From Bibersteinia trehalosi (lineage in GTDB: Bacteria > Pseudomonadota > Gammaproteobacteria > Enterobacterales > Pasteurellaceae): 64,000 nucleotides of DNA. Of this stretch, positions 29,619-33,338 are shown in pieces. The notes beneath the pieces are model-generated. The model saw only the letters and a list, made by a program, of their open reading frames with translations, was not told where the DNA came from and ran no database searches. Location of the stretch: contig NZ_SMAM01000005.1 in assembly GCF_004346205.1 (NCBI RefSeq), positions 124,001-188,000 on the forward strand, written 5' to 3'. Positions within the stretch are counted from its first letter, which is position 1. The number at the start of each line of letters is the position of its first letter. The translations under genes and the position numbers were made by a program.

Positions 29619-30377
29619 TTATTTAGCGATAATCACTTTTACGCCTTTTGCTTCAATTTGTTGCTGAATTTCAGGTTCAAGCTGATCATCGGTAATCAAT
29701 TTATCAATCTGCTGCCACGTGAGTTCTACATTTGGCATTTTGCGTCCAATTTTCTGTGATTCAATTAAGACTATCACTTCACGACTCACATCTGCCATCA
29801 CTTGACTTAAACTAAGCAGCTCGTTAAAAGTTGTTGTGCCACGCGCTAAATCAATACCATCAGCGCCAATAAAAAGCTGATCGAAATCATACGAACGTAA
29901 TACCTGTTCCGCGACCTTGCCTTGGAAAGACTCCGAGCGAGTATCCCAAGTTCCACCTGTCATTAAAATTGTTGGTTCACATTCTAACGTGGTCAGTTCA
30001 TTGGCTAATGATAGTGAATTAGTCATCACCACTAGCCCCTGCAAATTTAACTGTTTCACCAGAGCTTTCGTGGTACTGCCACTATCAATAATAATCCGAT
30101 TATGCTCGCGAATATGGTTCAGTGCAGCCAAGGCTATCGCTAACTTTTGTTTTGAAAACGTAGCCTCATTTTCCTCTGCGATCTCAAGTGGCATTCGAAT
30201 TGCCCCACCATAACGGCGCAATAAAAAACCGCTTTCTTCTAAAGCGGTAAGATCTTTACGAATAGTCACTTCAGAGGTTTCTAATTCCATTGCAAGCTGT
30301 TCAACGCTCACTTCACCTATTGTTTGAACTAAATTTGCAATAAATTGGCGACGTTGTTGTGTATTTCGTTTAGACAC
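29619..30377 (-). CDS. glmR: DeoR-family transcriptional regulator (GlmR-like)
   Basis: A 252-residue DeoR/GlpR-type repressor. The N-terminal winged helix-turn-helix is VEQLAMELETSEVTIRKDLTALEESG (split here: VEQLAMELET, SEVTIRKDL, TALEESG), and the C-terminal sugar-phosphate sensor domain has IIDSGSTTKALV and FIGADGIDLARGTTTFNE. It sits directly upstream of glmS on the same strand, the arrangement known for GlmR-type regulators in other gammaproteobacteria. Control of glmS by an amino-sugar phosphate is therefore the likely role. The name is inferred from context, not from a diagnostic motif. No clear operator was identified. Confidence 0.7.
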   Translation of the reverse strand: MSKRNTQQRRQFIANLVQTIGEVSVEQLAMELETSEVTIRKDLTALEESGFLLRRYGGAIRMPLEIAEENEATFSKQKLAIALAALNHIREHNRIIIDSGSTTKALVKQLNLQGLVVMTNSLSLANELTTLECEPTILMTGGTWDTRSESFQGKVAEQVLRSYDFDQLFIGADGIDLARGTTTFNELLSLSQVMADVSREVIVLIESQKIGRKMPNVELTWQQIDKLITDDQLEPEIQQQIEAKGVKVIIAK

Positions 30378-30569
30378 TTTTGTTTCGATTCATCTTTCGT
30401 TTCGAAAATTGTGCGGATTATAAACGCTATTTCACATAAAACAAAGCCGAACTTTTAATCCATCCTTATCTAAACTTTTGGAGTGAAACTACAGGATCTA
30501 TCAGAATAAAAAATCCCTTTAAAATCAAACACTACTTACCAAGTTTCAACCAGCAAAATTTGTCAAGAC

Positions 30570-30597
30570 TTGTTCTATGAAAAAATATGACTAGAAT
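30570..30597 (+). promoter_or_regulatory. putative nrdB promoter
   Basis: TTGTTC (30570-30575), a 16-base spacer and TAGAAT (30592-30597), 34 bases before the nrdB ATG. I looked for paired NrdR boxes (ACAC..TATA..GTGT) in 30378-30630 and saw none. Confidence 0.4.
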
Positions 30598-30630
30598 ACT
30601 GCGCATCTTTATTCAAATCTTAGGCTCGCT

Positions 30631-31608
30631 ATGTCCCGTAATATTTTCAAAAAACGTATTCAAATCAAACCTTATGAATACCCAGAACTCTTGGAGTTTA
30701 AAGACGCTATTCGTCACTCATATTGGTTGCATACCGAATTTAATTTCACTGGTGATATTCAGGACTATCGAACTAATATCAACGATCACGAGCGTCATGT
30801 GCTAACCCGTGCAATGTTGGCAATTTCTCAGATCGAAGTGAATGTAAAGCGTTTCTGGGGGGAGTTATATCGCTACTTTCCAAAACCAGAAATGGATGAT
30901 GTGGGTGGTACCTTTGCAGAAAGTGAAGTTCGCCATAAAGATGCTTATTCTTTCTTGCTGGAAAAACTTGGCTTGAATGAAATGTTCTCACAAATCACTG
31001 AAATCAAACCGCTAATGAAGCGGATTGAATATATGGAAGAGTTCATGCGTGAGAAAGATGCAGGTAAAGGGCAATTTGTACTTTCTTTAGTGTTATTTTC
31101 TCTCTTTGTTGAACACATTTCCCTGTTTGGTCAGTTCTTAATTATGATGTCGTTCAACAAGCATAAAAACCTGTTTAAAGGGATTTCGAATGCTGTTGAG
31201 GCAACTTCTAAAGAAGAAGAGATCCACGGCCGTTTCGGCATAGCACTTTACGAAATTCTACGTGATGAACACAGCGAACTCTTTACAGCTGAATTCTATG
31301 AAGAGCTAAAAACCTTATCACAACAGGCTTTTGAAGCAGAACGAGGTATTTTAGACTGGATCTTTGAAGAAGGTGATTTAAGCTTTATCAGCCAAAAAAC
31401 TGTAGAGAACTACATTAGATCTCGCTATAACAATTCATTAATGACTTTAGGTTTGGAACCACCGTATGATGTTGATCCTGACTTATTAAAGGAAACAGAG
31501 TGGTTTGATATTGAAATCCTTTCTACTAAAGAAACCGATTTCTTCAACAAACGCAGTACCGATTACAGCAAAAAAATGAAGCAGATTACTGCTGATGATC
31601 TATTCTAA
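30631..31608 (+). CDS. nrdB: class I ribonucleotide reductase, beta subunit (NrdB/R2)
   Basis: A 325-residue R2 protein housing the dinuclear metal centre. Probable ligands are Glu69 (SQIEV), Glu99 and His102 (SEVRH), Glu161 (FVEH), and Glu196 with His199 (EEEIHG). The first ligand is Glu where E. coli has Asp. The radical Tyr is kept: Tyr106 lies four residues after His102, as Tyr122 does in E. coli. Position and sequence resemble the compact R2 proteins common in Bacteroidetes more than enterobacterial NrdB. No ATP-cone precedes the domain. It is placed before nrdA, the reverse of the usual order, 62 bases upstream of it. Confidence 0.88.
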   Translation: MSRNIFKKRIQIKPYEYPELLEFKDAIRHSYWLHTEFNFTGDIQDYRTNINDHERHVLTRAMLAISQIEVNVKRFWGELYRYFPKPEMDDVGGTFAESEVRHKDAYSFLLEKLGLNEMFSQITEIKPLMKRIEYMEEFMREKDAGKGQFVLSLVLFSLFVEHISLFGQFLIMMSFNKHKNLFKGISNAVEATSKEEEIHGRFGIALYEILRDEHSELFTAEFYEELKTLSQQAFEAERGILDWIFEEGDLSFISQKTVENYIRSRYNNSLMTLGLEPPYDVDPDLLKETEWFDIEILSTKETDFFNKRSTDYSKKMKQITADDLF

Positions 31609-31611
31609 TTC

Positions 31612-31634
31612 GTAGGGTGCAACATGTTGCACCC
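31612..31634. repeat. GTAG-flanked perfect palindrome between nrdB and nrdA
   Basis: GTAG (31612-31615) overlaps the palindrome GGGTGCAACATGTTGCACCC (31615-31634), perfect over 20 bases. It has the layout of a REP unit: a GTAG tetranucleotide with a hairpin behind it. It starts 3 bases after the nrdB stop. Confidence 0.75.
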
Positions 31635-31670
31635 AACTATTTTCTATTTTATTAACGAATACTGTTTAAA

Positions 31671-33338
31671 ATGACTTATACAAATTCTGAACGTCCTGAT
31701 TTTGCTTGGCTAAATGAAGATAGCCGTTTATTTTTGCAACGCGGTTATCTGCTAGAAGGCACTACAGCATTAGATCGTATCCGCTTTATCGCTGAGCATG
31801 CTGAGCACAAACTTGGCATCGAAGGCTATGCGGATAAATTCTATCACTATATGGCGCGTGGCTACTTCTCACTCTCTTCACCAATTTGGTCTAACTTTGG
31901 ATTAGATCGTGGCTTACCTATTTCTTGCTTTGGGAGCTACATTGGCGATTCTATCCATGAAATTATGGTAACAACCGCTGAAGTCGGGATGATGAGCAAA
32001 ATTGGTGGTGGCACCTCTGCTTACTTTGGTGATATTCGCCCGCGTGGTAGTGCTATCAAGAATAACGGTAAATCCGATGGCTCATTTAACTTTAGTAAAC
32101 TGTTTGATACTGTCATTGACGTGATTTCACAAGGCACTTCACGTAAAGGACAATTTGCGGGTTATATTGATATTGAGCATGGCGATATTGATGAATGGCT
32201 GGATATTCATACTGAAGGTAACCCTATTCAGCTGATGTACTACGGTGTTTGCGTAGGGCATGATTGGTTAGAATCAATGAAAGCCGGTGACCCATACAAG
32301 CGCCAGCTTTGGGCAAAACTTTTGCAAAGAAAAACGGAAACTGGAATTCCATATTTATTCTTTAAAGACAACGCAAATGCAGGTCGCCCTGATGTGTATA
32401 AAGATAAAAATATGACTATTCATGCTTCAAATCTCTGTACAGAGATTATGTTGCCATCAAACAACGAGGAAAGTTTTGTTTGCTGCTTATCGTCAATGAA
32501 TCTACTCTATTTTGATGAGTGGAAAGACACCGATGCACCTGAAGTTTTGACTTACTTCTTGGATGTAGTCATGAGCGAGTTTATTGAGAAAAGTGCCGAT
32601 ATGCCATTCCTAGATCGCGCGAATCGCTTTGCGCGCCGCCATCGTGCTCTAGGCTTAGGAGTGCTCGGATGGCATAGTTACTTGCAAGCAAATAACATTG
32701 CGTTTGATAGTTTTGAAGCGATGCAGAAGAACAATTTAATCTTCAGAACCCTGCAAGAAAAAACGTTAAAAGCTTCACAAGAATTAGCGCGTCGCTTTGG
32801 TGAGCCAGAAATTCTCAAAGGCTATGGGCGCCGTAATACAACCTTAATGAGTATCGCACCAACGAAATCAAGTAGTTTTATTTTAGGTAGTGTATCTCCT
32901 TCGGTTGAACCATTTAAATCAAACTACTATGTAAAAGATCTAGCTAAGATCAAAACCGTGTACAAAAACCCATTCTTAGAAAAATTACTTCAAGAAAAAG
33001 GTTTAGATACCGAAGAAACATGGGAAAGCATCCTACTCAATGATGGTTCTGTGCAGCACTTAGAACAGCTTTCAGAGCATGAAAAAGAAGTGTTTAAAAC
33101 CTTCTCTGAAATCAGCCAATTAAGCGTAATTCAACAAGCAGCACAACGTCAAAAATATATTGACCAAGGACAAAGCATCAACATTATGGTGCACCCAGCA
33201 ACACCGGCAAGAGATTTGAACCAACTCTATCTCACCGCAGAAGAACTTGGTCTGAAATCTATTTACTACCAATACTCAATGAGTGCGGCACAAGTATTTA
33301 ACCGTAATTTATTGAGCTGTAGTAGCTGTGAAGGTTAA
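31671..33338 (+). CDS. nrdA: class I ribonucleotide reductase, compact alpha subunit (NrdA/R1)
   Basis: A 555-residue catalytic subunit, much shorter than the roughly 760-residue enterobacterial NrdA. The redox Cys86 (PISCFGS), the thiyl-radical Cys256 with Asn254 and Glu258 (NLCTE), the paired Cys271/272 region (FVCCLSSMN) and the C-terminal shuttle Cys550-x2-Cys553 are all present, so the enzyme should be active. The N-terminus begins straight in the ten-stranded barrel domain, with no ATP-cone, so the dATP activity switch is missing. It reduces ribonucleotides with the adjacent NrdB. The pair could be a second reductase acquired by transfer; other reductase genes lie outside the window, if present. 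Confidence 0.88.
   Translation: MTYTNSERPDFAWLNEDSRLFLQRGYLLEGTTALDRIRFIAEHAEHKLGIEGYADKFYHYMARGYFSLSSPIWSNFGLDRGLPISCFGSYIGDSIHEIMVTTAEVGMMSKIGGGTSAYFGDIRPRGSAIKNNGKSDGSFNFSKLFDTVIDVISQGTSRKGQFAGYIDIEHGDIDEWLDIHTEGNPIQLMYYGVCVGHDWLESMKAGDPYKRQLWAKLLQRKTETGIPYLFFKDNANAGRPDVYKDKNMTIHASNLCTEIMLPSNNEESFVCCLSSMNLLYFDEWKDTDAPEVLTYFLDVVMSEFIEKSADMPFLDRANRFARRHRALGLGVLGWHSYLQANNIAFDSFEAMQKNNLIFRTLQEKTLKASQELARRFGEPEILKGYGRRNTTLMSIAPTKSSSFILGSVSPSVEPFKSNYYVKDLAKIKTVYKNPFLEKLLQEKGLDTEETWESILLNDGSVQHLEQLSEHEKEVFKTFSEISQLSVIQQAAQRQKYIDQGQSINIMVHPATPARDLNQLYLTAEELGLKSIYYQYSMSAAQVFNRNLLSCSSCEG

Follow-up and report, generated by a model that had tools for sequence, protein, structure and literature searches.

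The window analysed here, a stretch of 64,000 nucleotides from Bibersteinia trehalosi (contig NZ_SMAM01000005.1, positions 124,001 to 188,000), carries a two-gene ribonucleotide reductase operon in which the gene for the radical-generating (beta) subunit, nrdB, precedes that for the catalytic (alpha) subunit, nrdA, on the same strand:

30631..31608, + strand: nrdB, radical-generating subunit assigned to class Id (NrdBi), 325 amino acids; from the open reading frame, Pfam, PDB matches and aligned residues
31671..33338, + strand: nrdA, catalytic subunit assigned to class Id (NrdAi), 555 amino acids; from the open reading frame, Pfam, NCBIfam and PDB matches

Both frames lie where the initial annotation had placed them, with the lengths and gene order it gave. 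It had also reported that neither chain carries an N-terminal ATP-cone, and this held: a Pfam scan up to E = 1 detected no ATP-cone in NrdA or NrdB, and because the reductase domains begin at residue 9 of NrdB (Ribonuc_red_sm) and residue 19 of NrdA (Ribonuc_red_lgN, with lgC), no space is left for a domain of 88 profile positions. Besides its reductase domain, NrdB gave a winged-helix match at chance level (E = 0.097). The catalytic cysteines of NrdA, said to be complete, are indeed present as C86, C256, C271, C550 and C553, unchanged in 43/43 Pasteurellaceae and 21/21 other NrdAi rows of our alignment, with C272 less constant (42/43 and 15/21, respectively). Taken together with the analyses below, we consider it roughly 90% probable that this pair is a working class Id reductase of the manganese- and superoxide-dependent type, which lacks the usual off-switch by deoxyadenosine triphosphate (dATP) and whose control by NrdR has been lost in this lineage.

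Class Id assignment and proposed working of the enzyme

The best PDB match of NrdA is 6dqx, over the whole chain and with 1237 bits, followed by 6dqw (676 bits), which we take to be the class Id alpha subunit of Flavobacterium johnsoniae; the next chains drop to 180 bits. Against the NCBIfam model TIGR02510 (NrdE-prime), NrdA scores 845 bits at a cut-off of 602. NrdB matches 8dq3 (573 bits), 6sf4, 5olk (presumably the NrdBi of Leeuwenhoekiella blandensis), 6cwo and close variants of these, the next chain having 96 bits. The closest solved beta chain, 8dq3, is identical over 102 compared residues to three Aggregatibacter actinomycetemcomitans loci. 6DQX is described as the class Id NrdA from Actinobacillus ureae (PMC8350387), and the A. 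ureae pair (locus L038, genome G008) is 96–97% (NrdA) and 92% (NrdB) identical to that of the window, in the same order and again with no room for an ATP-cone. The F. johnsoniae enzyme (beta chains 6CWO-6CWQ) shares the signature residues and an NrdB without an extra domain, but is more diverged (275 and 676 bits, versus 573 and 1237 for the nearest chains). The NrdBi of L. blandensis (6SF4/6SF5) has the same radical-generating domain and metal ligands, whereas its cone is absent from the NrdB of the window.

The aligned residues point in the same direction. The features described for class Id beta subunits are a Glu instead of Asp as the first metal ligand, a Lys and a Trp on the same helix, a retained Tyr, and a Thr that holds this Tyr (PMC6754362, PMC8463856). 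Glu69 as first ligand and the retention of Tyr106, both remarked on previously, are found as described and occur in all 43 Pasteurellaceae and all 21 other NrdBi rows; Lys73 and Trp76 (four and seven residues after Glu69) and Thr192 are likewise invariant across the 64 rows. Thr192 stands four residues ahead of Glu196, a pair whose counterpart in L. blandensis is Thr294/Glu298 (PMC6754362). Glu99, His102 and His199 were also noted in NrdB. Two more distant rows, L121 and L122, lack the class Id set: their first ligand is Asp, the Lys is replaced by Gln or Ser, the Trp by Tyr and the Thr by Ser. Gene content and signature residues are direct observations.

The cone-free NrdA of 555 residues fits a class Id alpha subunit, for which a median NrdAi length of about 565 residues has been given (PMC9531940), and the beta-alpha order is common in NrdAi operons (70/104; PMC9669993). 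In a quick tree of NrdA and NrdB, whose rows were NrdAi-like sequences and two outgroup rows rather than all ribonucleotide reductase subclasses and which carried long-branch warnings at its base, NrdA falls among the NrdAi-like rows, those of flavobacteria included, and apart from the outgroup. Other class I subclasses fit less well. The first ligand is not Asp and the alpha subunit has no ATP-cone, unlike in class Ia of the E. coli type, and the Phe that replaces Tyr in class Ic is not seen, Tyr106 being present. The NrdI activase encoded with class Ib was found in 0/140 Pasteurellaceae genomes, that of the window included (3/14 control genomes were positive), which agrees with class Id. Judged by its sequence, the window pair is a class Id (NrdAi/NrdBi) ribonucleotide reductase. 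The enzyme is an already known one, an ordinary class Id member closely orthologous to a reductase whose structure has been solved; the new element is its genomic setting, namely the cases in which it is the sole reductase and the repeated loss of NrdR and its boxes.

The metal, its activation and the site of the radical are taken from characterised relatives, in which the oxidant is described as a Mn2(IV,III) cluster formed with superoxide (PMC6754362, PMC8463856), the class Id Tyr still being required for activity (PMC8463856). By analogy, a superoxide-activated Mn2(IV,III) cluster is likely to be the oxidant in the NrdB of the window. NrdB would most likely bind two Mn(II) via Glu69, Glu99, His102, Glu161 (whose assignment as a ligand rests on the FVEH motif), Glu196 and His199. 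Entering next to Lys73, superoxide would oxidize these metals to Mn2(IV,III) with no NrdI activase needed, and from the cluster an electron hole would move to C256, the catalytic cysteine on the NLCTE finger loop of NrdA, a transfer in which Tyr106 and the C-terminal tail of NrdB may participate. NrdA would reduce ribonucleotides with a further cysteine pair, presumably C86/C271 by correspondence to E. coli, and the C-terminal CSSC would re-reduce this pair. As there is no ATP-cone on either chain, no usual dATP off-switch is expected, and control would be limited to substrate specificity.

NrdR and its boxes at the reductase operons

NrdR is described as binding two boxes upstream of reductase operons (PMC12176259), and the region in question here is:

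30371..30630, + strand: region upstream of nrdB, which has paired NrdR boxes in most NrdR-bearing relatives; from alignment and box scoring

NrdR (TIGR00244) is present in 128 of the 140 family genomes, and was not found in the B. trehalosi genome with either of two models. It is also missing from G005, G013, G083, G086, G098, G102 and G111-G115. Except for G005, which is 81% complete, the NrdR-lacking genomes are rated 99–100% complete, and G013, G111, G112, G113 and G115 are single contigs. G115 is the nearest relative of the window's genome by rpoB. In contrast to B. trehalosi, which has neither, A. ureae has NrdR together with paired boxes upstream of nrdB.

For each upstream region, the best-scoring pair of 16-base boxes 31–32 bases apart was sought, using what we take to be the NrdR consensus and spacing, and its score was compared with those of Markov-shuffled sequence (300 shuffles per class Id region, 200 per class Ia or class III region). 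The class Id set covered every one of the 51 operons, the stretches for G017 and G019 being cut only approximately. Pairs resembling the consensus are seen in many relatives in an alignment of 20 upstream regions, whereas the class Id upstream region of the window has no pair above shuffles (best 17/32, p = 0.93). Significant class Id pairs (p <= 0.01) were obtained in 34/40 NrdR-bearing versus 1/11 NrdR-lacking genomes; when G017 and G019 were left out and p <= 0.02 was used, the counts were 34/38 and 1/11. Class Ia pairs reached the floor p of 0.005 in 12/12 NrdR-bearing versus 0/6 NrdR-lacking genomes, and class III pairs in 8/8 versus 0/6. The class Ia sample comprised 12 of the many NrdR-bearing genomes and six of the seven NrdR-lacking genomes that have class Ia; the class III sample comprised six of eight NrdR-lacking genomes and eight NrdR-bearing ones, in each of which NrdD is of the long type. 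With the motif reversed, pairs appeared in 0/38 class Id, 0/12 class Ia and 2/8 class III regions of NrdR-bearing genomes. The one NrdR-lacking genome with a class Id pair is G005; since it keeps its boxes, its nrdR was probably missed.

In the B. trehalosi genome, paired boxes are absent from the class Id, class Ia and class III promoters alike. Its class Ia promoter retains one decayed box, 743 bases ahead of the barrel-domain match, where G002, G090, G010 and G071 have a working first box at 744–750 bases. The absence of detectable NrdR and boxes, like the phylogeny, is observed directly. With no NrdR operator at the operon and no detectable NrdR in the genome, neither of the well-known dATP feedbacks should reach this enzyme, although the class Ia and class III enzymes alongside it should remain open to dATP through their ATP-cones.

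The NrdR-lacking genomes, minus G005, fall in five places on the rpoB tree (G111-114; G086 with G098, support 85; G102; the B. trehalosi genome with G115; and G013), and the joint loss of NrdR and boxes is therefore a repeated one, with G083 as a possible sixth place. Class Id is carried by 11/12 NrdR-lacking and 40/128 other genomes, a comparison that is descriptive only.

A conserved block lies within the upstream region:

30560..30597, + strand: TTGTCAAG (30560-30567) overlapping CAAGACTTG (30564-30572), a -35-like TTGTTC (30570-30575) and a -10-like TAGAAT (30592-30597); putative promoter, from an alignment of 20 operons

Of the family's 39 beta-first operons, 35 have TTGTCAAG at 71–83 bases ahead of the nrdB start; the window contains it a single time. 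From its sequence, we infer that the block is the operon promoter, and expression would start from a promoter that keeps TTGTCAAG and the TAGAAT-like element and has no NrdR operator. The TTGTCAAG/CAAGNCTTG block (30560-30572) overlaps the likely -35 of nrdB, and TTGTCAAG is kept also in several NrdR-lacking operons; it is possibly a site for another regulator. Control by Fur was considered and set aside: the Fur consensus, as we assume it, did not score above shuffles at 5% upstream of nrdB in any of the 39 beta-first operons (in the lowest case, 5/40 shuffles were as good).

Companion reductases, distribution and descent

That the pair might be a second enzyme beside a standard nrdAB proved correct. 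The genome has a class Ia nrdAB (frames of 772 and 387 amino acids, contig C1) and a class III nrdD (708 amino acids), and the only two ATP-cone matches in the genome are in the class Ia NrdA and the class III NrdD; class Id is thus an additional enzyme there. The class Ia and class Id pairs carry out the same reaction. Their NrdAs are 23% identical (over residues 53-541), and the class Ia NrdB gave no blastp match to the class Id NrdB at E 1e-3. In this genome class Id probably allows DNA precursors to be made independently of iron, alongside the class Ia and III enzymes with their ATP-cones.

In other members of the family class Id has less company. By PF02867, 20 of the 51 class Id genomes have only class Id pieces, each with a single NrdB, and its standing as the sole class I enzyme in these genomes suggests that class Id works in vivo. 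Six of the 20 (G083, G084, G086, G102, G115 and G137) also lack NrdD, so that class Id is the only reductase found and anaerobic DNA synthesis is left without a known enzyme. G102 is Nicoletella semolina and G086 'Pasteurellaceae bacterium Macca', while G083 and G084 are metagenome assemblies. The absences in G083 are unsafe, because its assembly has no rpoB. Both G083 and G085 are unmatched by rpoB though rated 99% complete, a warning on absences in these two assemblies. G047, the rpoB sister of G046, has no class I reductase (no PF02867 or PF00268 match in a single contig, 99% complete), leaving a short-type class III NrdD as its sole detected reductase. Pasteurellaceae NrdD comes in two types, of about 710 amino acids (PF13597 near 1e-189) and about 600 amino acids (near 1e-110); the short one occurs in part of the window's rpoB clade, and the window's genome carries the long one.

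Class Id NrdA was found in 51/140 Pasteurellaceae genomes, in 22/43 genera. Five of 369 genomes drawn from the class matched at 1e-100: that of the window, G399 at 79% identity, one at 60% and two at 39–41%. G399, from another family of the same class, is the nearest row outside the Pasteurellaceae. Among the 80 best-matching of 107 loci from named genomes, non-Pasteurellaceae relatives of NrdA at 55–60% come from Flavobacteriaceae, other Bacteroidota, Patescibacteria, a Woesearchaeota metagenome-assembled genome (MAG), an unclassified bacterial MAG and Erysipelothrix. Among the best 15 plasmid and best 15 phage records, class Id NrdA is carried by haloarchaeal plasmids (up to 62%), Thermus plasmids and staphylococcal phages (up to 61%). 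One such phage (L128) has an adjacent nrdB with an ATP-cone; several other staphylococcal phage matches (among H10-H15) have a split nrdA match, with a homing endonuclease annotated at the split.

In the NrdA and NrdB tree (66 rows), the 43 Pasteurellaceae rows all cluster together (support 89), G399 is their sister (100), and Flavobacteria are a separate group; the long-branch warnings concern the deeper part. An rpoB tree was made of 80/140 family genomes and E. coli. Every class Id carrier whose rpoB could be used was included, and each remaining genus was represented by one genome or more; G001 has a broken rpoB and G083 and G085 have no rpoB match, and these three were excluded. On this tree the window's genome falls inside a clade of 40 genomes, 36 of which have class Id, and within this clade the class Id tree roughly tracks rpoB, as judged by eye. 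Class Id thus looks mostly vertical at this depth, and the ordinary Pasteurellaceae descent that the initial annotation had set against its proposal of transfer is largely what was found there. Elsewhere in the family presence is scattered (minimum of 11 changes on the rpoB tree), and placements differ between the trees: Lonepinella/G088 and G084 are inside the main clade by class Id and outside it by rpoB, and Volucribacter/G138 and P. bettyae lie near the base of the main clade in the class Id tree. This scatter and these placements suggest transfers inside the Pasteurellaceae.

Alternative readings, implications and remaining features

Tyr106 had been named as the radical Tyr, and the pair might accordingly resemble class Ia in all but the missing ATP-cone, with a di-iron/tyrosyl radical cofactor at Tyr106, in keeping with which Tyr106 is retained in every aligned NrdBi row. 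However, the combination of Glu69, Lys73, Trp76 and Thr192 is that of class Id. It argues against such a cofactor and makes it improbable that the radical sits on Tyr106: for those class Id enzymes that have been characterised, the Tyr is described as lying about 7–7.6 Angstrom from the metals, held by Thr, and iron as giving no activity (PMC6754362, PMC8463856). The class Ia NrdB of the same genome, as noted, is beyond blastp reach of the class Id NrdB. We regard a class Ia-like enzyme as extremely unlikely. Nor do we give much credence to a recent acquisition from Bacteroidota, a phage or a plasmid beside the native nrdAB, transfer having been raised as a possibility in the initial annotation. 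The subclass does occur in many Flavobacteriia, haloarchaeal and Thermus plasmids and staphylococcal phages, and flanking genes differ across most Pasteurellaceae genera: none of five flanking window genes had a match above 45% identity over half its length beside 24 Pasteurellaceae loci, single weak matches appearing at E 1e-5 in L060 and L078, and across the window and 23 loci nrdB and nrdA alone are common to all, flanks being shared just among near relatives. However, Pasteurellaceae NrdAs are 85–97% identical to that of the window and form one group, whereas outside NrdAs are at most 62% identical among the matches listed, save for the same-class genome at 79%. An ATP-cone was detected in 5/7 outside NrdBs scanned (Flavobacteriaceae, Nomurabacteria, Paceibacterota, Erysipelothrix and a phage; not in Halorubrum and Thermus) but in none of three further Pasteurellaceae NrdBs scanned, and flavobacterial NrdBs besides the one scanned have about 100 extra N-terminal residues. 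On identity and tree we rejected a recent transfer from these sources as very improbable. The likeness to Bacteroidetes-type reductases stood in that the NrdAi/NrdBi subclass is common in Bacteroidota, and fell as regards a Bacteroidetes origin, with flavobacterial identities of 58–60% for NrdA and 52–57% for NrdB and a cone on the one flavobacterial NrdB scanned.

The joint loss of NrdR and its boxes might itself be an artefact of incomplete assemblies and fast promoter turnover, as the probably missed nrdR of G005 and the unsafe absences in G083 would suggest. Against this stand the completeness ratings and single contigs of the remaining NrdR-lacking genomes, whose operons, where scored, have no significant pair in any class (class Id 10/10, class Ia 6/6, class III 6/6), as well as the decayed box in the class Ia promoter of B. 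trehalosi; we consider an artefact unlikely. Returning to a class Id enzyme released from NrdR, several points weigh against it. The metal it uses, the oxidation state, the need for superoxide and the response to dATP are all carried over from relatives, and since no Fur box was seen, a role under iron limitation has no regulatory support. The box p values depend on Markov shuffles and on the assumed consensus and spacing. With wrong spacings, NrdR-bearing genomes still gave 19/38 class Id pairs at 26-27 and 19/38 at 36-37, together with 2–4/12 for class Ia and 5–6/8 for class III (NrdR-lacking: 1/11, 1/6 and 0/6 for class Id, Ia and III); as a single strong box lifts the pair sum, the boxes are well supported and their spacing weakly. 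Six NrdR-bearing genomes (G017, G018, G088, G103, G138 and G139) have no significant class Id pair, and because the B. trehalosi assembly is in 25 contigs, nrdR might conceivably lie in an assembly gap. No statistical link between carrying class Id and lacking NrdR is supported by independent rpoB-tree pairs, of which there are five, too few for 0.05; for this reason, and because G013 lost NrdR without class Id, the co-loss is not shown to be caused by class Id.

We see about an even chance that a broader pattern holds, in which five or more Pasteurellaceae lineages, that of the window among them, have lost NrdR and, in each reductase operon that was scored, its operators, and G086, G102, G115 and the MAG G083 seem to be without any known dATP sensor (no ATP-cone reductase, NrdD or NrdR). 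In these four, where class Ia, NrdD and NrdR are absent and three of the four NrdBs were scanned and are cone-free, nothing with an ATP-cone would be expected to remain. The window's genome, with a feedback-free class Id enzyme beside cone-bearing class Ia and III enzymes, would be an intermediate state. In 20/51 carriers class Id apparently suffices for aerobic DNA synthesis, and in up to six of them for DNA synthesis altogether. If the loss of dATP sensing is confirmed, the bacteria concerned, which are animal-associated, would be natural examples of DNA precursors being made with no known feedback by dATP. They would test the need of dATP feedback for deoxynucleoside triphosphate pools and mutation rate, and sister genera that bear NrdR would serve as controls. 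In one open-access library we found no paper on class Id reductase in Pasteurellaceae or on ribonucleotide reductase in Nicoletella.

Within the operon, nrdB and nrdA are separated by 62 bases, while in most relatives examined the genes overlap or are 28 bases apart. The Aggregatibacter loci L053-L056 have the order nrdA-nrdB (alpha-beta, against beta-alpha in the window) and gaps of 142–369 bases, unlike the other Pasteurellaceae loci examined. The gap in the window contains one further feature:

31615..31634, no strand: perfect 20-base palindrome GGGTGCAACATGTTGCACCC, between nrdB and nrdA

The palindrome, which distinguishes the operon from that of A. ureae, is one of six sites within three mismatches in the genome, and looks like a small dispersed repeat inserted into the nrdB-nrdA operon.

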